A stretch of DNA of 44,386 nt, taken from Fredinandcohnia onubensis (GTDB lineage Bacteria > Bacillota > Bacilli > Bacillales > Bacillaceae_L). Positions 12,315 through 25,305 of the stretch are shown here, in pieces (position 1 is the stretch's first letter; each line of letters starts with the position of its first letter). The stretch lies in contig NZ_JAPSKV010000021.1 of NCBI RefSeq assembly GCF_031181385.1, positions 1 through 44,386 of the forward strand, given 5' to 3'. Both the position numbers and the translations under genes were made by a program. Below the pieces are notes generated by a model, which was not told where the DNA came from, did not search any database, and saw nothing but the letters and a program-made list of their open reading frames with translations.

Positions 12315-12719
12315 TTAGAAGTTCTTATTTTGCTGTTTATCAGTGAGAAAAGTGATTGGCACGAATACTAAAAAAGCAAGTAAAAGTAAGCTTCCGCCCA
12401 CGATAAAGAACACCATGACAAAGGTCTCATTAAGATTAAAAGGATTTATATTGTACATCCACATTCCTACCGTCAACCCCAGAGCACCTAGCATTCCCAG
12501 GATGCTGTGAATGGGTACAAGTCTTTTGAATTTAATCGTATATACCTTATAAAAAATTCCCCAAGCAAACACCGATAGCCAGCCTACTAATAGAATATGA
12601 GCATGAATAGGTCTCAACGAATAATCCATATTTCCAGACATATGAGAGCCTAGAAAAGTACCGATTATACCGAATATAGCTGAAAATCGAATGAGCCGTA
12701 TACTCCAAGTTTGTTCCAT
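12315..12719 (-). CDS. Small four-helix membrane protein, possibly heme-copper-oxidase-like
   Basis: 134 residues with four hydrophobic segments. The stretch LRPIHAHILLVGWLSVFAWGIFY, with paired histidines before a helix, and a further His in PIHSILGMLG, recall the short stand-alone relatives of cbb3/NO-reductase subunit I. The similarity suggests heme binding but is only a motif-level impression. The gene begins 3 bp after the kinase stop and is the last gene of the exporter/two-component operon. A role in the membrane response sensed by the kinase is inferred; the function is unknown. Confidence 0.7.
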   Translation of the reverse strand: MEQTWSIRLIRFSAIFGIIGTFLGSHMSGNMDYSLRPIHAHILLVGWLSVFAWGIFYKVYTIKFKRLVPIHSILGMLGALGLTVGMWMYNINPFNLNETFVMVFFIVGGSLLLLAFLVFVPITFLTDKQQNKNF

Positions 12720-12722
12720 TAT

Positions 12723-14120
12723 TTATTCCTCCATTTCCCCAATCATGTTAGGAAGTATAATTGTGAAGGTTGTTCCCTCAGCAACCTTACTGTCAACCTT
12801 GATTTCTCCTCCATGCAGGTCAATTATTTGTTTAACGATCGATAAACCAAGTCCTGTTCCGTCCCTTTTTCTAGATGAATCCACTCGATAAAAACGTTCA
12901 AAAATTTGAGAGACGGCTTCCTTCGACATACCGATTCCTGTATCTTTCACAATGACCTTAACGAAAAACTCGCTTCTAGATAAGCTAATCCAAATATTCC
13001 CTCCATGTGTATTATACTTTATCGCATTTGTTAGTAAGTTGTCCCACACGTTACCCATAAGTTCTGCATCAACTTTCGTCCGAATAAATGGCAGTTTATA
13101 GGAGACTTCAATTTCCTTTTCCTGTAGTCTCCACTGATACCTGCGGATGGTTTGTTTAATTTGTTCATCCAATTGGACCTCTGAAATCTTCATCGGATAT
13201 GCTTGTTGATCAAGAGATGTTAACAGCAATAGCTGCTTAGTTAAATTTGAAAGCCGCTTTGATTCATGATCAATAACCTGTAAATATTCTTTAGCATCTC
13301 GTTCATTTACATTTTGTGTCAGTAGAAGCTCCGCATATCCCTGAATATTCATAAGTGGAGACTGAAAGTCATGTGACACATTATTGATAAAGGATTTCCT
13401 CGCTTCATCATTATGCTGTAATTGCCTCTGCATCGTGTTAAAGCTTTCTACTAATTGTCCAATTTCATCATTACGATCAATCGTTAGTGGATAATGAAAA
13501 TTCTCCCGTGTAATCTCTTTGGTCGCTTCCGTTAACTTAGTAATCGGCTGGATTAGATGCTTTGCAAACAGGATTACTCCACTAATACTAACAACCGTTA
13601 CTGCTACAAAAAACCACGCTAAAATCATATGGATATCCGAAAAGAGTAGTTTATTATTGGGACGGATAAATAAGCCGTATTGTTCCCCATTCATTGTGAA
13701 TGGGACGCCTACCGTATTCTCTACAGAATTTGAGAAATGTCCCATCATTAAAAACTTATGGGAAAATGCATTCATACCATGGTAAATTTCCTTCTCTGAA
13801 AGAACCTTCTCGGCTTCTTGTGGAAGAACTGTCTTTGTAAAAGGCTTACCAAAATAAGCTTCTTTACCGGATTCGTTTACCACATATATCTGATACCCTA
13901 GGTTTCCAATCGATTCCAAGAATGGTTCGAAGGAGGAGCTATCCGAATGCATACTCTCAAGTGTTAATGTAATTCTTTGTGCAATCTCTACATTTTGCTG
14001 ATCAATCTTCTGTTTTGTTGATGTCATGTAAATAAAATTTGCGATGCTTATTCCGACAATGACACTTATCATTAAAATCAATAACGTAGCCACAATAAAT
14101 TTCCGATATAAAGTCTTCAT
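12723..14120 (-). CDS. Sensor histidine kinase, HssS-like
   Basis: 465 residues. There are membrane segments at about 8-30 and 165-187 with a roughly 135-residue external sensor between them, then HAMP (188-240), a HisKA phospho-acceptor H250 (NNVSHDFQSPL), and an HATPase domain with N-, G1 (DTGIGM), F and G2 (GTGLGLSIV) boxes. The external domain shares the order and wording of staphylococcal HssS (YQIYVV, YFGKPF, YHGM, ENTVGV, FIRP), suggesting a heme-stress or related membrane-stress sensor. It overlaps the regulator gene by 4 bp. The ligand is inferred from resemblance recalled from memory, not from alignment software. Confidence 0.88.
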   Translation of the reverse strand: MKTLYRKFIVATLLILMISVIVGISIANFIYMTSTKQKIDQQNVEIAQRITLTLESMHSDSSSFEPFLESIGNLGYQIYVVNESGKEAYFGKPFTKTVLPQEAEKVLSEKEIYHGMNAFSHKFLMMGHFSNSVENTVGVPFTMNGEQYGLFIRPNNKLLFSDIHMILAWFFVAVTVVSISGVILFAKHLIQPITKLTEATKEITRENFHYPLTIDRNDEIGQLVESFNTMQRQLQHNDEARKSFINNVSHDFQSPLMNIQGYAELLLTQNVNERDAKEYLQVIDHESKRLSNLTKQLLLLTSLDQQAYPMKISEVQLDEQIKQTIRRYQWRLQEKEIEVSYKLPFIRTKVDAELMGNVWDNLLTNAIKYNTHGGNIWISLSRSEFFVKVIVKDTGIGMSKEAVSQIFERFYRVDSSRKRDGTGLGLSIVKQIIDLHGGEIKVDSKVAEGTTFTIILPNMIGEMEE

Positions 14121-14788
14121 TTTATTTCCTCTAGCTTATAGCCAATTCCGCGAACCGTTTGAATTTCCACCGATGCATCAAATTTTTTCAAGCGCTCCCG
14201 GATACGGTTTATATGAGTATTTAACGTTTGTTCTCCACCTTCATAATCAACACCCCATACTTGTTCCACCAGTACGGCTCTAGGCGTAACCTTATTTACA
14301 CGTGAAGCTAACAAGCTTAAAACTTCAAATTCCTTTAATGGTGGAAGAACTGTCTCATGATTTATATTTAATTCGAAATTTTTTCGATCAATCATGAGAT
14401 TTCCTACTTTAATTACCGTTTCCATAGCACGTTCGACACGGCGTAACACAACGGCAACACGGAATAGGAGTTCCTTCACCTCAAAAGGCTTAACAATATA
14501 GTCCTCAGATCCAGATAGGAAGCCTTGTTCCTTATCATCGATTTGACCTTTGGCAGTAAGCAGTATAACGGGGATATCATAGTCGTTCGACAAAATCTTG
14601 GTCAATTCAAATCCATCCATTTTGGGCATCATCACATCAACAATCGCTAAATCAACTGTTTTTTCTTCCAACAAGTCTAATGCTTCTTCGGCATGATTAG
14701 CTCTATATACTTGATAGCCTTCTCGGCTCAAGTGAATCGATACTAGCTGTTGAATATAGACATCATCATCTACAACAAGAATCTTCAT
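14117..14788 (-). CDS. OmpR-family response regulator, HssR-like
   Basis: 224 residues: receiver domain with acidic D8/D9, phospho-acceptor D51 (IVDVMMP) and the switch lysine in VKPFEVKELLFR. A winged-helix DNA-binding domain follows, ending in TVRGIGYKLEE. The wording (NDYDIPVILLTA, SGSEDYIVKPFEVKELLFR, WGVDYEGGEQT) is closest to HssR among regulators I know. The frame runs up to 14878, but AGGAGGT before the ATG at 14788 marks the start MKILVVDDD. It sits between the MMPL exporter gene and its partner kinase, so it probably controls the whole operon. Confidence 0.92.
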   Translation of the reverse strand: MKILVVDDDVYIQQLVSIHLSREGYQVYRANHAEEALDLLEEKTVDLAIVDVMMPKMDGFELTKILSNDYDIPVILLTAKGQIDDKEQGFLSGSEDYIVKPFEVKELLFRVAVVLRRVERAMETVIKVGNLMIDRKNFELNINHETVLPPLKEFEVLSLLASRVNKVTPRAVLVEQVWGVDYEGGEQTLNTHINRIRERLKKFDASVEIQTVRGIGYKLEEIK

Positions 14789-14840
14789 AATACGAAACCT
14801 CCTAAAAGCAAAATACGAAGGAAGCCCTTTGTATTCTATT

Positions 14841-16961
14841 TTATTGTCTATTATGCGATGCTTGGTTGTCATTTTCAAATAGCAGTATCAAAGCTGGTAA
14901 TAGCATTCCGCGTACTAGGAAAGTATCTATTAAGATTCCAATCGCGATGATGAATCCAAATACGAATAGATCGGCAATTGGCATCGTTGTTAGTGCTGCA
15001 AAAGTTGCAGCTAGAATGATACCAGCAGATGAAATGACTCCCCCCGTATTACGGATCGCAACTTCAAGAGCATCTTTAACTCGATGAGTCTTCCTCTCTT
15101 CTATGAATCGTGAGGCAAGGATGATGTTATAATCGATACCTAGGGCCACAAGGAAGATAAAAGCATATACCGGAACTCGGGTACTTAATGCATCATAGCC
15201 AAACAAGAAATCGACAAGGAAGATTCCAAGACCCAAAGCAGATACATAGGAAAGTAAAATGGTTGCCATCATATAAATTGGCATTTTCATTGAACGAGTT
15301 AAGGCAAATAAGAGTATGAGGATGAGTAATGTTTCAAGTATCACAATTGTAAAGATATCTCTCGTATTTACATCAAGTTCATCTACTAGCTTTGCAGTCA
15401 CTCCGCTATAATATGCTTCTCCTGATATAGAAAGGTCCTTCAATAGATTTGATGTATCTTCACGTAAATCTTTAATAATCGTCATAGATTCTATAGAATA
15501 TGGATCCGTTGCTAACACAACACTCAACGTTAATGCCTTAGAGTCTTCAGATTGTGCAGTCATTCGAACAGTTGCAATTTCATCATATTCTTGCAGTTTT
15601 TCTGTAAAAGCAGTCACTGTCTCTGGGGCTATTGCTTCATCACTTTCAATTAACAATGTTGTAGGTGCTAGCTCCCCTTTATCATATCTTGTCTCTACAA
15701 TTTCATAACCTACTCGAGAAGGTAAATCCTCAGGGAACTTTTTGACAGTATCAAATTCAAAATCAAGATTAAATATATTTAATGCGGTGATGAGTAGGAA
15801 AACACCAACAATGCCTCCAGATAAACCTGGTTTATTCACCACAAACTTAGCTATTGGCCCCCAAATTCCGTGTTTTATTTCTTTTTCTTCGCCATACTTT
15901 GGAACTGTCGGCCAAAACGCTTTACGACCAAAGAGTGTAAATAAAGCCGGAACCAATGTGATCGACGCTAACATAATAAAGAACATTGCAAGCCCAAATA
16001 TAGGTGCAAAGTTTTGATAGTCACGGAAATTGGCAAAGAATAAGATTAGCATTGCTGCTAACACCGTTCCTCCGGCAAAAAATACAGGTTCCCCAGTTGC
16101 ACGCATTGCTAGTTTCATAGCTTCATATTTACTTTCTTCTTTGTTTAGTTCCTCGCGGTAACGAGAGAATACAAATAGTGAATAGTCAATCACTGCAGCA
16201 AAAAGCAAAATACTCATAATTGAGGTTGTGGAGTTATTAATTTCTATCCCGCCCGCTCCTAGTAATGCAACACTTTGATTCACGACCTGATAAACAATCC
16301 CTGTTGCTAATAAAGGTATGAATGCAAGTAATGGTGAGCGGTAAATGGCAATAAGTAATACTAAAATAATCCCTATCGTTGCAAGTAATAACACCACGTC
16401 CGCTTGCTCAAATAACTTGAGTGTGTCTCCAGCTATTCCTGCGGGACCAGTGATATAAAAGGACATATTTTCAAACTGATCCGCAATCTTATTTCCTACC
16501 TCAGAAGCCTTGTCATTTATTTCGGCAAATTCACTATTGCCAAGGCCCTGTTCTAATTCCATCGGCACAATCATCGTTGTACCATCTTCAGAGATAAAGC
16601 CTGCTAACGCTTGAGGTGGAAGTGCGCTAATATCAAGGATGGTCTCAATTCCTTTAATATCTTCTGCTTCGATTCCATTTAGTATTTGTGTAACCTCATC
16701 GGTACGAATGTCTCCATTTTCATTATGGAATACAAGGATTCCCGGTGTCCCTTGCTCATTTGGAAATAGCTCTTCTGTCTTTTTCTCAGCTATTATCGAT
16801 TGTGCTTCATCAGGGAGCGATTGAAAGTTACTTACTTTATAATCGCCAAGCGTTGGTCCGGCACTTAATCCGACCATCAAGACTAGCCAAGCGATAATCG
16901 TAATCCACATCCCACGTTTACTTGAAACCCAATCTGTAATTGGATGTAACAGTTTTCTCAA
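14841..16961 (-). CDS. MMPL/RND-family membrane transporter
   Basis: 706 residues with 12 predicted membrane segments in two halves (1 plus 5 helices each). Two large external domains and the conserved acidic/Tyr motifs of the MMPL repeat are visible (AVIDYSLFVFSRYREE in the first half, ALGIDYNIILASRFIEE in the second). RND exporters of this type (YdfJ-like) use the proton gradient to export lipids or hydrophobic toxic compounds. The start is TTG at 16961 with AAAGGAGG upstream. It is the first gene of an operon with an HssRS-like two-component pair and a small membrane protein, and its promoter carries an HssR-box-like repeat. Confidence 0.92.
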   Translation of the reverse strand: MRKLLHPITDWVSSKRGMWITIIAWLVLMVGLSAGPTLGDYKVSNFQSLPDEAQSIIAEKKTEELFPNEQGTPGILVFHNENGDIRTDEVTQILNGIEAEDIKGIETILDISALPPQALAGFISEDGTTMIVPMELEQGLGNSEFAEINDKASEVGNKIADQFENMSFYITGPAGIAGDTLKLFEQADVVLLLATIGIILVLLIAIYRSPLLAFIPLLATGIVYQVVNQSVALLGAGGIEINNSTTSIMSILLFAAVIDYSLFVFSRYREELNKEESKYEAMKLAMRATGEPVFFAGGTVLAAMLILFFANFRDYQNFAPIFGLAMFFIMLASITLVPALFTLFGRKAFWPTVPKYGEEKEIKHGIWGPIAKFVVNKPGLSGGIVGVFLLITALNIFNLDFEFDTVKKFPEDLPSRVGYEIVETRYDKGELAPTTLLIESDEAIAPETVTAFTEKLQEYDEIATVRMTAQSEDSKALTLSVVLATDPYSIESMTIIKDLREDTSNLLKDLSISGEAYYSGVTAKLVDELDVNTRDIFTIVILETLLILILLFALTRSMKMPIYMMATILLSYVSALGLGIFLVDFLFGYDALSTRVPVYAFIFLVALGIDYNIILASRFIEERKTHRVKDALEVAIRNTGGVISSAGIILAATFAALTTMPIADLFVFGFIIAIGILIDTFLVRGMLLPALILLFENDNQASHNRQ

Positions 16962-16979
16962 AATGTAAAACCTCCTTTA

Positions 16980-17260
16980 ATGCTTTTCGATTACAATCTT
17001 ACTAACCGAATATAAATTTAATATCAACTTTTGTTTACATTTGTCGAGAAACTGGCAATGGGTAGCTTCGGACAGGATGATGGCAAATCTGGGCGGAGGT
17101 GTCTGAAGTTTAGGTTACTTCAGACAGTCGATTGAAGGGGATTCAGCCACTTTTCATCAGCTCTTTTCCTTTTCATACGCTCAATGAAGCGAAGGCAATA
17201 TAGCACGGGGTTGTCTATTGCTATTTCAAAGAACTCTTCGATTATATCTTTGAAAATAGT
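16980..17260. other. Intergenic region between the MMPL and aspartate dehydrogenase-like genes
   Basis: The region holds the MMPL promoter with its direct repeat, and an inverted repeat TGTCTGAAGT / ACTTCAGACA (about 17099-17125) without T-runs. The possible 57-codon ORF reported separately is here too. The segment 17080-17210 is more GC-rich than its surroundings and may be the remnant of a lost gene. Confidence 0.4.
17009..17028 (-). promoter_or_regulatory. HssR-box-like direct repeat upstream of the MMPL gene
   Basis: Minus strand GTTGATATT, two bases, then ATTTATATT. The S. aureus HssR target is a direct repeat of GTTCATATT with a 2-bp spacer; the two halves match it at 8/9 and 7/9 positions. 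A weak -10 (TAAGAT) follows 7 bp downstream, the arrangement expected for an activator of the OmpR family. Confidence 0.6.
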
Positions 17261-19591: not shown

Positions 19592-19915
19592 GTGAAAAAT
19601 GAAATAAATCTTTTAGACCTATCCAACGAGAAATTATTTGAAGTTTACGAACAGAAATTTAAAGCTATTGCTGATCAGAAAAGATTACAGATTATGAATA
19701 TTCTTACCCAAAAAGGTGAAATGTGTGTATGTGATCTAGCTCCTATCGTAGATATGACCCAATCAAAATTATCCTATCATTTAAAGATCTTATTAGATGC
19801 AAACATTATTTTAAAAGAAACTAGAGGAACCTGGAGTTATTATAAATTAAACTCCGATGAGATAAATCATCTGTTATCTGAAGAACTCTGTTGTCTATTT
19901 AAACCCAATAGGTGA
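19592..19915 (+). CDS. arsR: ArsR/SmtB-family metalloregulator
   Basis: A 107-residue winged-helix repressor. The metal-sensing motif ELCVCDL-like MCVCDLA (Cys45, Cys47) lies in the recognition-helix region, followed by MTQSKLSYHLKILLDANII. A second Cys pair (EELCCLF) is near the C-terminus and could add As(III) ligands. The start is a GTG with AAGGTGAT upstream. It lies behind a strong promoter with two ATCAA/TTGAT palindromes, and a third copy precedes the next gene. It is distinct from the ArsR at 25359-25655 and starts a separate plus-strand operon that converges on the main ars operon. Confidence 0.9.
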   Translation: MKNEINLLDLSNEKLFEVYEQKFKAIADQKRLQIMNILTQKGEMCVCDLAPIVDMTQSKLSYHLKILLDANIILKETRGTWSYYKLNSDEINHLLSEELCCLFKPNR

Positions 19916-19935
19916 AGTTATTTTTCGATTTTTAA

Positions 19936-19950
19936 ATCAATTTTTTTGAT
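19936..19950 (+). promoter_or_regulatory. Third ATCAA/TTGAT operator
   Basis: ATCAA-N5-TTGAT lies between arsR and the 66-codon gene. A second ATCAA follows 8 bp later. It repeats the palindrome found on both sides of the arsR promoter and may allow separate control of the two small genes. Confidence 0.6.
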
Positions 19951-19993
19951 TAATAAATCAATATATCTTGTTTAGCAAAAGGAGATGGTTTTA

Positions 19994-20194
19994 ATGAATT
20001 ACCATGATTATGAAGTGTTAGCAAAATATAAAAGGCAAGAATTCGAAGAGTTTGCAAAAAATTCATGGATACTTTCGTCAATCAAACATGAGAGCATGTT
20101 ACAAAAAATAAGTAAGGTATTTATAAAAAGAATCAAAAATAATAGTACACAAACTAAAGATGCTTGTTGTTCTACTCAGTGCTGCATTGCTTAA
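19994..20194 (+). CDS. Small protein with C-terminal paired cysteines, arsR operon
   Basis: A 66-residue basic, helical protein ending in DACCSTQCCIA, with two vicinal Cys pairs separated by three residues. An in-frame ATG at 19985 overlaps the ribosome site; AAAGGAG with 9-nt spacing picks the ATG at 19994. It follows arsR and is preceded by an ArsR-type palindrome. Vicinal cysteines suit binding of As(III), Sb(III) or another thiophilic ion, so a buffering or delivery role is plausible. I do not recognise a named family, and the function is inferred only from context and the tail. Confidence 0.75.
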   Translation: MNYHDYEVLAKYKRQEFEEFAKNSWILSSIKHESMLQKISKVFIKRIKNNSTQTKDACCSTQCCIA

Positions 20195-20210
20195 GAGGTG
20201 AATGATATTC

Positions 20211-20417
20211 ATGATTGTAAACCATGGAAGCAATTTATCAAAAGAATATTTTCTTGCCTATATAAAATTAGTTATGAACTCTAGGGATTGCTCCATTGAA
20301 ACTGCAAAAAATCTTACTATGGACTTGTTTTTTAAGAATGATAAAAACCGTTTTGGTAAAGATACTTTTCAAAGTTTCGAAGATGCATTCTACGAATTAT
20401 TTGAAGAAATGAACTGA
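20211..20417 (+). CDS. Small protein of unknown function, arsR operon
   Basis: 68 residues, acidic at the C-terminus (FEDAFYELFEEMN) with a central helix-rich part and one Cys. The frame also offers an ATG at 20202, which touches the AAGAGGTG ribosome site. The ATG at 20211 has about 10-nt spacing and is preferred. The gene lies 16 bp after the paired-cysteine gene and before a strong terminator, so it belongs to the same ArsR-controlled operon. No family recognised. Confidence 0.65.
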   Translation: MIVNHGSNLSKEYFLAYIKLVMNSRDCSIETAKNLTMDLFFKNDKNRFGKDTFQSFEDAFYELFEEMN

Positions 20418-20484
20418 GCGAATACGACTATCTTTTATAAAATTTTTGTGCAATAGATATTCGAAGTCATACTAAACTATATAT

Positions 20485-20520
20485 AAAAAGAAGTGAGTTT
20501 ACTCAAACTCACTTCTTTTT
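20485..20520. terminator. Bidirectional terminator between the two ars operons
   Basis: A perfect 16-bp stem AAAAAGAAGTGAGTTT / AAACTCACTTCTTTTT with a 4-nt loop lies between convergent genes. Confidence 0.92.
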
Positions 20521-20524
20521 ATAG

Positions 20525-20803
20525 TTAACAACAGCTACTTGCACCTAATAATACGAATCCTTCACCATTTTGGTTTTCTTCTGTATCTAATGTTAGTTCC
20601 TCAGTAGCGTTAATTTGTGAGTCGAACGCCACCTTAATTCCATTAATTGTTTCAATCTTGTCATTTGATTGAGGTGCATCTAAAGATAATGCAAATTGTG
20701 GTCCACAGCAGCCAGCTGTAGAATATAGACGTATACCTTCTACTCCATTTTCAGCTATTACAATTTCTAATAGTTGTTTAGCGGAATTTGTAATTTTCAT
20801 CAT
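20525..20803 (-). CDS. HesB/IscA-like protein in the ars operon
   Basis: 92 residues of the HesB/YadR/YfhF fold: KITNSAKQLLE, GIRLYSTAGCCGPQFALSLD, and a tail GFVLLGASSCC. Standard A-type Fe-S carriers use a conserved Cys plus CxC tail. Here both sites are vicinal Cys pairs (about residues 32-33 and 91-92), which would suit a soft metal such as As(III). A second ATG lies one codon after the first. It is the last gene of the minus-strand ars operon, 18 bp after the phosphatase. Role in arsenic handling is inferred from position and the cysteine pattern. Confidence 0.82.
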   Translation of the reverse strand: MMKITNSAKQLLEIVIAENGVEGIRLYSTAGCCGPQFALSLDAPQSNDKIETINGIKVAFDSQINATEELTLDTEENQNGEGFVLLGASSCC

Positions 20804-20821
20804 TATTTCTCCCCTTAATTG

Positions 20822-21250
20822 TTAGCTATTTGGGTAAATTCTTTTTAATGCTTCCTTCATCTCTGGCTTCACATTTATTTTTGGCCTTGCTTGTTTAGCA
20901 AGTTCTTCAGCCTCTTCAATTGTACTTGCCTTACTTAGAGCAAGTAATGTTCCAATCGCCACAGTGCCTGTACGATTACTTCCACCTTGGCAATGGAAGT
21001 ATACATTCTTTCCTTCTTTATAGGCATTAACAACATGTTCTATGGAGCTTTCAATTGATTCTTCTTGGTTCTCCGCGTCGTCAACAATTGGGCTATGAAC
21101 ACGACTATACTTTGGTTCTTCATTTGGTGCTTCAGCTCTTAAATCATACACAACATCGATCTTTTCATTTTTTAGCGCTTCTTGTACATCATCAGCACCA
21201 CCGATATAAATTCTGTCTTTTACTAACTCATGGTAATTCTTAGTTGTCAT
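20822..21250 (-). CDS. Dual-specificity/tyrosine phosphatase-like protein in the ars operon
   Basis: 142 residues with the cysteine-phosphatase signature HCQGGSNRTG (Cys87, Arg93) after the strand YFHC and a helical C-terminal half. An upstream Asp-containing stretch (SPIVDDAEN) may supply the general acid. AGGAGG precedes the ATG. It lies between arsA and the HesB-like gene with short gaps. The CX5R fold is also used for arsenate reduction in some eukaryotes (Acr2/Cdc25 rhodanese type), but this one is of the DSP type. Its substrate, a protein, a sugar phosphate or arsenate, is unknown. Confidence 0.82.
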   Translation of the reverse strand: MTTKNYHELVKDRIYIGGADDVQEALKNEKIDVVYDLRAEAPNEEPKYSRVHSPIVDDAENQEESIESSIEHVVNAYKEGKNVYFHCQGGSNRTGTVAIGTLLALSKASTIEEAEELAKQARPKINVKPEMKEALKRIYPNS

Positions 21251-21321
21251 AGTGAATCCTCCTATTATTAAGAATTGTACAACTCATGAATACTATTCCG
21301 CAGATGAAGTTGTCATAGCGA

Positions 21322-23091
21322 TCAACTAATGTAATCTTTTAGCTTCTCGTACCCAACTTTTTCTTCACTTTGCCAAGGAATAATAGCACAATTTTCAGCT
21401 TGATCTGTACTAACTTCATATATCCATTCTTTCTCTAAAATTGCTTTACCTTTTAATACAGGATCAGTTGTACCAGTAGCGAGTAAACTTTGATTAATTA
21501 CCCACCATTTTGGATTAATATGAGCTCGTCTTAAATCAGCTTGTAATCTTGACGCCTCTAATACAGGTGTAGCTTCAGCCAAAGTAACAATAACAACAGA
21601 TGTTTCCTTAGGATTTCGAATCTTAGGAAGTAGTTTTGTTACACTTTCTGGCACCTCACCAGTTGACCTAGCAATTTCCTTACTATATGACTGTGCGGCA
21701 TCTAGCAAGAGTAAGGTATGCCCTGTAGGAGCGGTATCAATAACTACAATCTCATTTTCAGATTTGGCAACTACTTCTGCAAATGCTCGAAAGACTGCAA
21801 TTTCCTCGGTACAAGGTGAATTTAAATCTTCCTGTAAATACGCAAGACCTTCTTCATCTAAATCATCGCCAGCACTCGCTAACACTTCTGCCTTATATTT
21901 CTCTACTTCCTCTTTTGGATTAATACTGCTAATCGTTAGATTTTGATCTAGTTGATCGGTTTGAAATTGATACTGTATGTGAGCAGCTGGATCAGTTGTT
22001 GTTAAATGAACATGATGTCCTTTTTCCACCAAACCAACTGCAATAGCAGATGCAACTGTTGTTTTACCAACTCCACCTTTACCCATAGTGAATATTAGTT
22101 TTGTATCACTTGATGAAAAATCATGTATTACATCGTTTAGCTTTGGGATATTACCTAATTTAATTTCCCTGTTAGTTTCTTCTATTGGAATAAAGTGATC
22201 TTTAAATAGATAACGTAGATTTGTAACACCAGTTAGAGAATATGAAACAAAAGGTAATGAATAACTTACAGTCTGTTTTAGATGTTCTGGAATCTGTTTT
22301 AAAGCATCTCTTTGCCTTTGATAAAATGCTGCTGATACTTCATCTTCCTTGATATAATTTTGTAGGAGCCCATTCACGATGAGCATCTGATTTTTTATAC
22401 CAACCTCTTTTAATTCCAATGAGGCACGATTTGCTTCTAAAAGTGATGAAACATCCGGCCTTGTTACTAATAGAAGAGTAGTTTTACTTGAATCTGAAAG
22501 AACATCAACAGTCTCCGAATAAAGATTTTTCTTATCCGCAAGTCCAGATAATGGTCCTAAACATGAAGCCCCATGGGTACTTTCCTCTAAAAATCCATTC
22601 CAAGCAGTTGGCAATTTTAAGAGACGTAACGTATGTCCGGTTGGCGCTGTGTCAAAAATAATGTGATCATATTGGTTAATGATTTTATTATTAGTAAGTA
22701 ATGATGAGAATTCATCAAACGCTGCAATCTCTACTGTACATGCTCCAGATAATTGTTCTTCCATTGTAACTACCACGGAGTCAGGAAGTATCCCACGATA
22801 TGGCCCAACAACTTTCTCACGGTAATTTTTTGCAGAAGCTTCTGGGTCCAGATTACTAGTAAATAAATTCTCAACAGTTGGAACAGCTTTAGGCGAATTT
22901 GTTAATTCGATACCAAATACATCTTGTAAATTGGATGCTGGGTCGGTACTTATCAATAATACCCTTTTTCCATTATCAGCTAATGCTACAGCTGTTGCAC
23001 ATGCGGTTGATGTTTTTCCTACTCCACCTTTGCCAGTTAAGAATATAAATGGCGTTTGCACTACATTTTTCGGATTGAAGGACTGAAACAT
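21322..23091 (-). CDS. arsA: Arsenical pump-driving ATPase
   Basis: A 589-residue tandem-repeat ATPase that powers arsenite export through ArsB. Two P-loops are seen (GKGGVGKTS at about 20-28, GKGGVGKTT at about 337-345) and two DTAPTGHT switch motifs (about 147 and 454). The three As(III)-binding cysteines of the family are at C118, C177 and C427. It accepts arsenite from ArsD. The ribosome site is weak (AGAAGTG). It starts about 23 bp after arsD and precedes the phosphatase and HesB-like genes. Confidence 0.96.
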   Translation of the reverse strand: MFQSFNPKNVVQTPFIFLTGKGGVGKTSTACATAVALADNGKRVLLISTDPASNLQDVFGIELTNSPKAVPTVENLFTSNLDPEASAKNYREKVVGPYRGILPDSVVVTMEEQLSGACTVEIAAFDEFSSLLTNNKIINQYDHIIFDTAPTGHTLRLLKLPTAWNGFLEESTHGASCLGPLSGLADKKNLYSETVDVLSDSSKTTLLLVTRPDVSSLLEANRASLELKEVGIKNQMLIVNGLLQNYIKEDEVSAAFYQRQRDALKQIPEHLKQTVSYSLPFVSYSLTGVTNLRYLFKDHFIPIEETNREIKLGNIPKLNDVIHDFSSSDTKLIFTMGKGGVGKTTVASAIAVGLVEKGHHVHLTTTDPAAHIQYQFQTDQLDQNLTISSINPKEEVEKYKAEVLASAGDDLDEEGLAYLQEDLNSPCTEEIAVFRAFAEVVAKSENEIVVIDTAPTGHTLLLLDAAQSYSKEIARSTGEVPESVTKLLPKIRNPKETSVVIVTLAEATPVLEASRLQADLRRAHINPKWWVINQSLLATGTTDPVLKGKAILEKEWIYEVSTDQAENCAIIPWQSEEKVGYEKLKDYIS

Positions 23092-23114
23092 ACATTACAC
23101 TTCTTTCTCTTTTA

Positions 23115-23474
23115 CTATTTCTGTATATTTAATGAGAGACGAATTTTTGGTTTTTCAGTTAGTTCTTCTGATTTAACACCAAGCCATTCAGCAAATTCTT
23201 CATTTGTTGGATAGCCTCCAACTTTTACAACCTCTTCATCCAATAAAACAACTGGTAACGCATCTGGACCTTTTTCATGTAAAATATTGTTTACTGTTAA
23301 GGTTTTTGCGAATTTTTCAGGATTGTTTGTTAACTGATACCTTGTTATATCAAATCCTTTTTTTTTCAATGAATAAACCGCAGATGCTACCCTTGTTAAT
23401 TCTGGATCCACCGAGGGACCACATACACCTGTTGAACAACACATAGCTGGATCATATATCTCAATTTTTTTCAT
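23115..23474 (-). CDS. arsD: Arsenic metallochaperone
   Basis: 119 residues with the family's As(III)-transfer cysteines C12, C13 and C18 (PAMCCSTGVCG) in a thioredoxin-like fold. It hands As(III) from glutathione or other thiols to ArsA. The second cysteine pairs found at the C-terminus of some ArsD proteins are absent. GGGAGG precedes the ATG. A palindrome related to the ArsR operator and the arsC terminator lie just upstream, so arsD-arsA may have its own promoter. Confidence 0.95.
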   Translation of the reverse strand: MKKIEIYDPAMCCSTGVCGPSVDPELTRVASAVYSLKKKGFDITRYQLTNNPEKFAKTLTVNNILHEKGPDALPVVLLDEEVVKVGGYPTNEEFAEWLGVKSEELTEKPKIRLSLNIQK

Positions 23475-23499
23475 CAGATAACCTCCCGTTTAATATTAA

Positions 23500-23515
23500 A
23501 TAAGCATATACTTAT
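23500..23515 (-). promoter_or_regulatory. ArsR-operator-like palindrome before arsD
   Basis: Minus strand ATAAGTATATGCTTAT, an inverted repeat of ATAAG around 6 bp, preceded by AT. It contains the same ATATAAGT unit as the three repeats at the arsR-arsB promoter and could let the same repressor control arsD-arsA. Confidence 0.55.
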
Positions 23516-23525
23516 ATAGATTTTA

Positions 23526-23556
23526 GAAAAAAACCAAGAGTTAAATCTCTTGGTTA
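23526..23556 (-). terminator. Terminator after arsC
   Basis: Minus strand AACCAAGAG / CTCTTGGTT with a 6-nt loop and seven U, 10 bp after the arsC stop. It separates arsR-arsB-arsC from arsD-arsA. Confidence 0.85.
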
Positions 23557-23565
23557 TTAGATTTA

Positions 23566-23985
23566 TTATTCACCAGTTTCAGCAAATCGTTGAATTCTTT
23601 CACCAATTTGGTCACGTACTCGTTGGAAAACTGCCCATTTCTCTTCTTCCGTACCTTGAGCTTTCGCAGGGTCATCGAATCCCCAATGATCACGTTTAAC
23701 ATGTGGTGGTGTCGTTGGACACTTATCAGCAGCATCTCCACATAAAGTTACGACAAAATCAGCATTGTTTAGGATTTCAGGGTCAATAATATCTGAAGTT
23801 TGATTGGAAATATCAATACCAATTTCGTTCATCGCTTTTACCGCATTAGGATTCAAACCATGTGCTTCAATACCTGCACTTAATACGTTCCACTCATTTC
23901 CTAGATACTTTTCCCCCCACCCTTCAGCCATTTGGCTTCTGCAAGAGTTACCTGTACATAAAAAGTAAATTGTTTTTTTAGACAT
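23566..23985 (-). CDS. arsC: Arsenate reductase, thioredoxin-coupled
   Basis: 139 residues of the low-molecular-weight phosphatase fold. The catalytic loop CTGNSCR (C10, R16) and the resolving cysteines C82 and C89 ([11 protein letters not shown]) match Bacillus/Staphylococcus ArsC, which reduces arsenate to arsenite through a disulfide cascade ending at thioredoxin. AAAGGAG precedes the ATG. It follows arsB by about 21 bp and is followed by its own terminator. Confidence 0.97.
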
Positions 23986-24006
23986 AAACGAAATCTCCTT
24001 TGTTGT

Positions 24007-25305
24007 TTAATGAATAATAAGTAACCAGATATATAATCCAACTAGAGTAATGAACAATGTCGGAATGGTTAATACAATACCAGTCTTAAAGTAGGTTCCC
24101 CACGAAATCTTAACACCCTTTTGTGAAAGAACATGTAGCCATAATAGCGTGGCAAGAGAACCAATTGGTGTAATTTTTGGACCTAAATCTGAACCAATGA
24201 CGTTCGCATAGATAAGAGCCTCTCTTATTACACCGCTTGTATTTGTATCTGCAATTGCTAGAGCATCTATCATGACAGTCGGCATGTTATTCATAACAGA
24301 TGACAGAATCGCTGCAATGAATCCCATTCCGATTGTTGCCGCAAATAATCCTTGATCAGCAGTAAACTGAATTAGACTTGCTAGGATATCTGTAAGTCCA
24401 ACATTTCTTAGCCCATATACAACTACATACATTCCTATTGAGAAAAACACGATAGCCCATGGAGCACCTTTTATTACTGTACGTGTATTCACGGCTAAAC
24501 TTCTCCTAGCCATGAAGAGGAAGAAGATTGCCACAATACCTGCGATAATTGATACAGGAATTCCTGTAAATTCACTTGCAAAGTATCCAATAAGTAGTAT
24601 CCCTAACACAACCCAAGATAATCTGAACATCTTCAGGTCACGAATCGCTTCTACAGGCTTTTTCAATTGAGTTATATCATAATTCTTTGGAATGCTCTTA
24701 CGGAAAAATAGATATAAGACCAAAATACTTGCTGCTAATGAAAAGAAGTTTGGAATAATCATCCTTGATGCAAACTCTGCAAAACCAATTCCAAAAAAGT
24801 CTGCTGAAACAATGTTTACTAAGTTACTTACGACAAGTGGCAGAGATGTCGTATCTGCAATAAATCCACTAGCTATAATAAATGGGAATACCATTTTTTC
24901 ATTGAAGTTTAGATTTCGAACCATCGCTAATACGATTGGAGTTAAAATTAATGCTGCCCCGTCGTTAGCAAAGAATGCAGCTACTAATGCACCTAAAATA
25001 GATACATACACAAACATTCGAACACCATTTCCTTTTGCTGCTCTTGCCATGTGTAATGCTGACCACTCAAAAAATCCGATCTCATCTAGTATTAATGAAA
25101 TGATAATAATAGCAACAAACGCTAGAGTTGCGTTCCAAACAATGGATGTAACATCGATTACATCTTTAAAATCCACTACTCCAACGATTAGAGCTAAGAT
25201 AGCCCCACCACATGCAGACCAACCAATAGATAAGCCCTTAGGTTGCCATATAACCAAGACTAGTGTAATTAAGAAAATAACTGAAGCTAAAATTACTGAT
25301 ATCAA
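24007..25305 (-). CDS. arsB: Arsenite efflux permease
   Basis: 432 residues with about 12 membrane segments of the ArsB/NhaD ion-transporter superfamily. Typical blocks are [19 protein letters not shown] and [17 protein letters not shown], and the [19 protein letters not shown] end. It is not Acr3, which has a different fold. It exports As(OH)3, alone or driven by ArsA. The start is a TTG with AGGAGG at 7-nt spacing. It lies between arsR and arsC. Confidence 0.95.

Follow-up and report, generated by a model that had tools for sequence, protein, structure and literature searches.

The two-component system HssRS and its exporter HrtBA are described from Staphylococcus aureus, Bacillus anthracis and Listeria. 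In the S. aureus sensor kinase HssS, a heme site on the surface of the membrane is reported to be lined by Arg94, Arg163, Phe25 and Phe128, and Arg94 is required for full activation by heme (PMC11237747). A review, in its available text, assigns heme and porphyrin efflux in Gram-positive bacteria to ABC pumps (HrtAB, PefCD) and MFS pumps (PefAB, HatT), with MmpL unmentioned there (PMC12670364). Here we analyze a 44,386-nucleotide stretch of Fredinandcohnia onubensis (GCF_031181385.1, NZ_JAPSKV010000021.1), referred to as a whole as the window, which is contig 19 (G000:C19) of a genome of 4.26 Mb in 39 contigs (G000). It carries a putative operon in which an MMPL transporter is found with an HssRS-like pair where HrtBA would be. 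As far as the known systems are set out in the accessible parts of the respective papers, the window system shares with them the kinase and regulator family and the HssS-type sensor fold (PMC11237747, PMC3968170, PMC6305404, PMC12153329); alike are also the direct repeat of 9-2-9 layout, the 7 bp to the -10 element, and a transporter as output. It differs in that MMPL replaces HrtBA, the sensor pocket carries the changes R94T and F127H with a Met-Met before it, recognition helix and box are altered, and an extra small protein is present, though some HrtBA-type operons have one as well. HssRS control of hrtBA has no counterpart here: no HrtB was found in the genome and the MMPL gene comes first in the operon. 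Genome comparisons show that this wiring is widespread and recurrent, and bear out most of the original prediction; a function connected to heme is conceivable.

The genes of the locus, in transcriptional order and with window coordinates, are the following:

14841..16961, minus strand: MMPL/RND transporter of 706 amino acids with a TTG start (PF03176 at 8.9e-101; nearest PDB structures MmpL4/MmpL5; placed in the MMPL tree)
14117..14788, minus strand: HssR-like OmpR-family response regulator, 223 amino acids from ATG (Pfam, tree, recognition-helix residues)
12723..14120, minus strand: HssS-like sensor histidine kinase of 465 amino acids (Pfam, sensor identity, tree, pocket residues, model), with sensor residues I24, T95, M125-M126-G127-H128-F129 and H164
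12315..12719, minus strand: four-helix membrane protein of 134 amino acids with H39-A-H41, resembling cytochrome oxidase subunit I from helix X onward

As the transporter and regulator genes are 52 bp apart, regulator and kinase overlap by 4 bp and the small protein gene follows after 3 bp, the four probably form one operon. Pfam families were found for the transporter (MMPL), the regulator (Response_reg/Trans_reg_C) and the kinase (HAMP/HisKA/HATPase_c), whereas neither Pfam nor NCBIfam gave a match for the small protein at E 0.1. PF03176 matches the transporter in two stretches, and the translation contains both the VIDY and the GIDY motif, which have a role in proton transfer in MMPL proteins. 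Identity to the operon of the same-genus genome G005 is 96% for the MMPL and 98.5-99.6% for the other three proteins.

A collection of species genomes scanned with the sensor alignment gave 239 pattern matches, 132 of which were confirmed as relatives. The best 80 of these 132 (35-98% identity) were used, the HrtBA side being therefore under-sampled, and were annotated together with 29 further loci and the window. The kinase-plus-regulator tree comprises 104 rows and comes from a quick search with SH-like approximate likelihood ratio (SH-aLRT) support only and long branches flagged; L056, L074, L131, L128 and L138 (genomes already represented) and L058 (broken kinase) were left out. In this tree, a clade of 44 rows (40 FtsX-linked, 4 unassigned; support 96) adjoins a clade of 45 rows (support 95) that consists of 33 rows with MMPL upstream, 4 with MMPL downstream, 6 unassigned and 2 with FtsX. 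Staphylococcal-type rows fall outside both; this type was inferred for L150-L154 and L167 from pocket residues and divergent FtsX/ATPase genes. The window kinase and regulator are thus placed by their sequences in the HssRS family, as a probable paralog whose clade lies beside the HrtBA-linked one. The original prediction, which had read kinase and regulator as HssS/HssR-like and the first operon gene as an MMPL transporter, agrees with these results: the motifs that it quoted are present in the translations, the tree groups the pair with HssRS and reveals no non-Hss grouping, and Pfam and the coordinates confirm the transporter. A role in anti-phage defence was discarded, as PADLOC matches the kinase alone, weakly and over its ATPase part, the regulator not being included.

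Two main gene orders were found around these pairs: MMPL directly upstream of regulator and kinase, or an FtsX permease and an ATPase up- or downstream of them, which by kinship and position correspond to HrtBA. The best 80 of the 132 relatives split into 30 loci with MMPL upstream, 37 with FtsX, 3 with MMPL downstream and 10 with neither. The MMPL-regulator-kinase order, after a search of other Bacillaceae had been suggested in the original prediction, was recovered in 17 genera of Bacillaceae, Caryophanaceae, Fictibacillaceae and Paenibacillaceae, including one B. pumilus locus (L113), and the small protein is encoded in 27 of 33 MMPL-upstream loci. Both orders are found within the genus of the window: the window genome and G005 carry MMPL-regulator-kinase-small protein, G009-G012 carry FtsX permease-ATPase-regulator-kinase-small protein, and G007 has regulator-kinase-small protein with no adjoining pump. 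The MMPL gene hence occupies the operon position that is held by hrtBA in the HrtBA-type operons of sister species. Yet, since flanking genes differ within the genus, sensor domains of the two types of kinases are 34-38% identical, and the clades are separate, the MMPL type is no in-place swap, but one of two old clades at different genome places. At E<=1e-3, an HrtB-like gene was detected in G009-G012, and none in G000 or in G005-G008. An HrtB profile run at 1e-8 over 12 chosen genomes, 3 of them positive controls, gave no match in 7 of 8 genomes with an MMPL-type operon (G000, G271, G338, G361, G102, G166, G082), one match in the eighth (G381), two in G116, where an MMPL-clade kinase adjoins a distant FtsX gene (L159), and matches in all 3 controls. 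One HssRS type per genome is commoner in this small sample, yet it is no rule.

Broken copies were also observed, of the MMPL gene in G008 (L057:7158-8763) and in S. globispora (L084:6656-6994) and of the kinase gene in G006 (L058:9801-10661, with a run of N close by), and the MMPL-HssRS module seems to be dispensable at times. At seven further loci (L096, L098, L099, L100, L105, L119, L120), the genes that directly adjoin the HssRS-like pair encode neither an MMPL nor HrtBA; in L096 and L098 an MMPL gene lies further upstream, and in L100 the contig ends after the box.

The promoter region of the window operon carries the following elements:

17009..17028, minus strand: HssR-type direct repeat GTTGATATT-AA-ATTTATATT, predicted binding site of the regulator, conserved in orthologous promoters
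17029..17040, minus strand: ATGTAAACAAAA block just 5' of the repeat, common to near orthologs (read from the promoters, uncounted)
16996..17001, minus strand: predicted -10 element TAAGAT, 7 bp past the repeat, with TANNNT at equal distance in 30 of 32 loci scoring at least 12

Compared to the staphylococcal-type HssR consensus, the half-sites of the window repeat match at 8/9 and 7/9 positions (15 of 18), with the 2-bp gap that had been predicted, and the site was located at 17028-17009. When the 360-bp region was shuffled 200 times with its dinucleotides preserved, one shuffle attained this score. A threshold of 12 of 18 is weak, the best shuffled score averaging about 11.5 per 360 bp, and counts are therefore given at 14. 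With the window's own site as the yardstick for the window class, 30 of the 33 MMPL-upstream loci, the window included, reach at least 14 of 18, so the expected conservation in orthologous promoters was recovered; the remaining three are L104 and L107 at 13 and L084 (broken MMPL) at 9, and the best sites in L107 and L113 are possibly out of register. With K at position 6, the repeat is the sole site in the 4.26-Mb genome with at most 2 mismatches, a backwards control pattern also giving 1. Since the repeat is single in G000, the regulon is predicted to consist of the MMPL operon alone, and no wider regulon was seen in this genome.

Boxes of the other classes could be compared position by position. 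Staphylococcal-type loci have boxes like GTTCATATT-N2-GTTCATATT pointing at hrtB, with 14-17 of 18 matches in 6/6 loci. FtsX promoters score at least 13 in 33 of 36 scanned, with C at positions 3 and 14 and a TA 7 bp further on in all 33; among the misses, the boxes of L114 and L143 precede the small protein gene, and L127 scored 12. In the window class (32 loci scoring at least 12), position 3 is G in 27 or T in 5, and position 14 is T in 31 or C in 1. In step with these two positions, the recognition helix changes from ERTVDVHIKRLR in the HrtBA clade (R187/V189/D190/V191/K194, each in 43-44 of 44 rows) to EQTLNTHINRIR in the window clade (Q in 26/32, and L, N, T and N each in 32/32). We propose that its own box and recognition helix would keep the window clade apart from HssRS-HrtBA in genomes where both occur.

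The modeled sensor domain of the kinase (predicted local distance difference test score, pLDDT, 87.8) consists of a long first helix and four strands, as described for HssS. Leading PDB matches of this fold are models of WalK and of chemoreceptors together with a domain of unknown function from B. subtilis; neither HssS nor a heme sensor is among these leaders. Residues were counted over clade groupings set by hand from the tree. Phe25, Arg94, Phe127 and Phe128 are invariant in the 44 rows of the HrtBA clade. Position 163 is His in all 44 of these rows and hence is not diagnostic, and Phe128 is found in 104/104 rows. The window clade keeps Phe128 and the His at 163. The window itself has Ile, Thr, Phe and His at HssS positions 25, 94, 128 and 163, so that of the four reported heme-pocket residues it keeps Phe128. 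Of the 32 core rows of its clade, 30 carry Met at position 124 and 30 at position 125. The ligand site of the window clade has thus been remade, and may suit either another ligand or heme held via its iron by His/Met. Another ligand is thinkable because Arg94 is gone and pocket, recognition helix and box are all changed; candidates are a tetrapyrrole other than heme or some other amphiphile of the membrane. For heme or a close porphyrin as the ligand of the window clade we see about an even chance, and the likelihood appears higher for a second lineage of MMPL-linked pairs.

In this second lineage (L101, L112, L130, L160, L161, L163, L165, L166), the MMPL gene lies downstream of regulator and kinase, and follows the small protein in 4 of 8 loci; its products are 38-44% identical to the window MMPL. 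An HssR box is found 3' of the kinase gene in 8/8 loci, with scores of 16, 17, 13, 17, 17, 14, 15 and 16 of 18 in the order just given (at least 14 in 7 of 8). It lies within 17 bp of the kinase stop in seven of them, and at 179 bp in L160; in the seven loci other than L160, between 0 and 8 of 200 shuffles reach the score of the box. The box leads into small protein plus MMPL in four loci and into MMPL in the other four; right behind the box, the MMPL of L161, L163 and L166 starts 68-77 bp past the kinase stop. A further box, in L059 (15 of 18), precedes a small protein gene, after which no pump follows. The eight regulators have K194 in 8, V191 in 7, R187 in 6 and D190 in 4, and the sensors Phe128 in 8, Phe127 in 7, Phe25 in 4 and Arg94 in 3, with Lys at position 94 in another 4. 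HrtB is lacking in 4 of 5 second-lineage genomes examined. For an MMPL that exports heme, the second lineage arguably makes the better case. In one of its loci (L130:3870-12078), cydD, cydC, regulator, kinase, box, small protein and MMPL follow each other in one gene run; cydDC encodes the exporter for cytochrome bd maturation.

A single origin of the MMPL link, with the 41 MMPL-linked rows constrained to one clade, was rejected by the approximately unbiased test (p-AU 3e-35), and the tree requires a minimum of 5 changes between MMPL and FtsX. A tree of the MMPLs themselves has the 31 upstream rows as one clade and the downstream ones as another group (support 85, long branches); L057 and L084, with broken MMPL genes, were also left out of it. 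Based on the rejected one-clade constraint, the pump changes and these separate groups, MMPL appears to have been linked to HssRS more than once. The sister of the upstream-MMPL clade consists of paralogs with an adjoining TetR gene in the three examined. One such paralog in the window genome, 54% identical to the window MMPL (L209:4585-7442, G000:C1), adjoins a TetR gene in 3/3 genomes examined, and is a possible counterpart of the staphylococcal FarRE.

The small protein lies 3' of the kinase in 42 of the best 80 loci, distributed as 24/30 of the MMPL-upstream, 13/37 of the FtsX, 3/3 of the MMPL-downstream and 2/10 of the other loci. H39 and H41 are conserved in 31/31 aligned members. The model (pLDDT 86.9) displays four helices, and its first-ranking Foldseek match is an oxidase subunit I (probability 1.00, E 0.07, query template modeling (TM) score 0.63), and the list of 50 contains two more subunit I chains, at ranks 14 and 33. 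The small protein aligns to a paralog (hhalign 97%, E 4e-11), and the paralog to COX1 (Pfam E 1e-6, under the cut-off; hhalign 76%, E 2e-5), with its H36-V-H38 on the oxidase H-F-H, which carries two heme ligands. Through this paralog, the small protein resembles helix X of oxidase subunit I, both heme-ligand histidines included, which supports the earlier reading of the last gene as a His-containing membrane protein with a heme-oxidase-like motif.

The paralog (L065:7231-7608, G000:C5), weakly matching COX1, is present in 9/9 Ferdinandcohnia genomes searched, and sits between speB- and argS-like genes (named by eye) in three fetched regions. Outside the HssS loci the family occurs as well; matches at 1e-5 were obtained in 58 of 299 Bacilli genomes, a count that includes weaker paralogs and copies next to HssS. 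We fetched 20 regions with standalone copies, chosen for spread out of 208 genomes with a match; 17 of them had no common neighbor, and the other 3 were without a called copy. One standalone HxH protein (L181:6151-8348) is encoded between a Rrf2-type regulator (NsrR/RirA-like, both under the cut-off) and a nitric oxide (NO)-inducible flavohemoprotein gene. Another one (L188:6170-11145; L189 is similar by eye) lies near imelysin, DyP-type peroxidase and FTR1 iron-permease genes, which we take to be an EfeUOB-like set.

Our preferred reading, to which we give a probability of roughly 0.6, is that the window operon would be a self-contained, autoregulated detoxification unit, in which an insulated HssRS paralog senses a membrane-partitioned tetrapyrrole or similar amphiphile and induces its export through the MMPL transporter. 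The phosphorylated regulator would bind the repeat and recruit polymerase, and the proton-driven pump would remove the compound from the membrane. The small four-helix protein, its two histidines placed like the oxidase heme ligands, might bind a heme-type ligand in the membrane and either buffer it or present it to sensor or pump. Box and recognition helix would insulate the clade from ordinary HssRS-HrtBA. A farther-reading version remains tentative, with the odds somewhat against it: Bacilli would repeatedly have put MMPL in the place of HrtBA under HssRS, making MMPL transporters exporters of heme or porphyrins in Gram-positive bacteria; the relative of the oxidase fold would be a membrane heme-binding partner of HssRS that buffers or hands over heme; and in the window clade, Met-Met-Gly-His-Phe beside the pocket would supply a ligand for the iron, so that a site that anchored heme by its propionates would now coordinate it. 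The proposal of an alternative heme or redox-cofactor detoxification module accordingly stands in part: HssRS kinship, MMPL wiring, the conserved repeat and the oxidase likeness speak for it, and the changes in Arg94, pocket, helix and box against it.

Several observations weigh against heme and against the module as a whole. Within the window clade, Arg94 is found in 0/32 core and 1/7 outlying rows, Phe25 in 20/32 core rows (Ile in the window), and Phe127 is replaced by His in 39/39, which argues against plain heme sensing; in the second lineage too the pocket is not fully canonical (Phe25 4/8, Arg94 3/8). Heme binding by the small protein is reached through a two-step chain. Attempts at direct proof that it is an oxidase piece failed: a PDB search by sequence gave one chance match (E 0.22), Pfam no COX1 family match (1 of 31 relatives at 4e-4) and direct hhalign against COX1 0.2%, leaving as support the paralog bridge and Foldseek, where none of the 50 matches listed reaches E 0.001, the first standing at just 0.07. 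Six of the 33 MMPL-upstream loci do without the small protein, the module is broken in some relatives (the kinase in G006, the MMPL in G008 and S. globispora), and two rows inside the MMPL clade have FtsX genes (L159, 26%, and L168, 62% identical to HrtB). We found no experiment that links any MMPL to HssRS. Finally, both HssRS types occur together in M. maritimus MER TA 152, Bacillus sp. EB106-08-02-XG196 and S. globispora DSM 4 (MMPL broken), so that they are not simple substitutes in these three genomes.

The lost Arg94, the Phe127 replacement and the three genomes with both types would suit a window clade that senses and exports a non-heme, non-porphyrin amphiphile of the membrane, as a two-component counterpart of FarR-FarE; quinones, free fatty acids and antibiotics made by plants or microbes are examples. 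The RND/MmpL pump FarE of S. aureus, which the TetR regulator FarR controls, is reported to raise resistance to linoleic acid (PMC10019231), and the nearest MMPL relatives in the genus (53-54% identical) are present in 9/9 Ferdinandcohnia genomes, stand beside a TetR gene in the three examined, and form the sister group in the MMPL tree. However, the usual companion of the window type is a protein with oxidase-type heme-ligand histidines, and the second lineage has HssR-type boxes with Phe128 in 8/8, Phe127 in 7/8 and a basic residue at position 94 in 7/8; moreover, staphylococcal-type MMPLs, found in 3 of 5 genomes, are 25-32% identical to that of the window, with FarE not singled out among them. 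We regard this explanation as rather unlikely. An improbable one is that the module watches the respiratory, iron or nitrosative state, the small protein binding heme and sensing NO, carbon monoxide or redox, and the MMPL being part of a general envelope response. The surroundings of the small protein genes in L181 (Rrf2-type regulator, flavohemoprotein) and L188 (imelysin, DyP-peroxidase, FTR1) and the cydDC genes in the L130 run would fit it, but these are single loci, the 17 regions share no neighbor, and the kinase retains an HssS-type sensor. That the pair is an ordinary two-component system with a transporter, its HssS likeness reflecting general kinase similarity, could be read from the NCBIfam matches listed (25 of 98 and 25 of 106), where HssS and HssR do not appear and PnpS, WalK and MtrA come first, each well below the cut-off. 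The match to HssRS, however, extends over sensor domain, regulator, box, spacing and gene companion; general kinase kinship as the whole explanation is contradicted by tree and box, and we hold it to be highly improbable.

Other described systems share single features with the one preferred here. FarR-FarE of S. aureus is alike in having a Gram-positive RND/MMPL pump under dedicated control with membrane-active substrates, and differs in its TetR regulator (PMC10019231). In mycobacteria, as described for MmpL3/MmpL11 and MSMEG_0243-0246, MMPLs are reported in heme handling with a two-component system and a heme-binding protein adjoining; as the source has it in its available text, they are reported for uptake, and knockouts there did not confirm a heme role (PMC7516205). 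Clostridioides difficile HsmRA has as heme-sensing output the membrane heme-binding storage protein HsmA, under a MarR-type regulator, a likeness to the window system that is one by description alone (PMC12670364). Heme-copper oxidase subunit I would, via the paralog, be alike in the HxH of helix X and the helices that follow; the window protein differs in having four helices only and in matching no COX1 family. No published description of an MMPL-HssRS operon was found in the openly licensed literature, absence from which is no proof, nor of the oxidase-like small protein in HrtBA-type operons, many of which carry it. If true, an MMPL/RND transporter that took the heme-efflux slot on more than one occasion would extend these pumps by a proton-driven class; it would provide a testable substrate for bacterial MMPLs, and bear on the heme role reported for mycobacterial MmpL3 and MmpL11. 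The changes in pocket, helix and box can also be seen as a natural experiment in the duplication, insulation and retargeting of a two-component system.

Near the operon, at 19592-25305, the window also carries arsenic resistance genes, encoding an ArsR-type regulator, ArsA, ArsD, an ArsC-like protein with the low-molecular-weight phosphatase fold, and ArsB.

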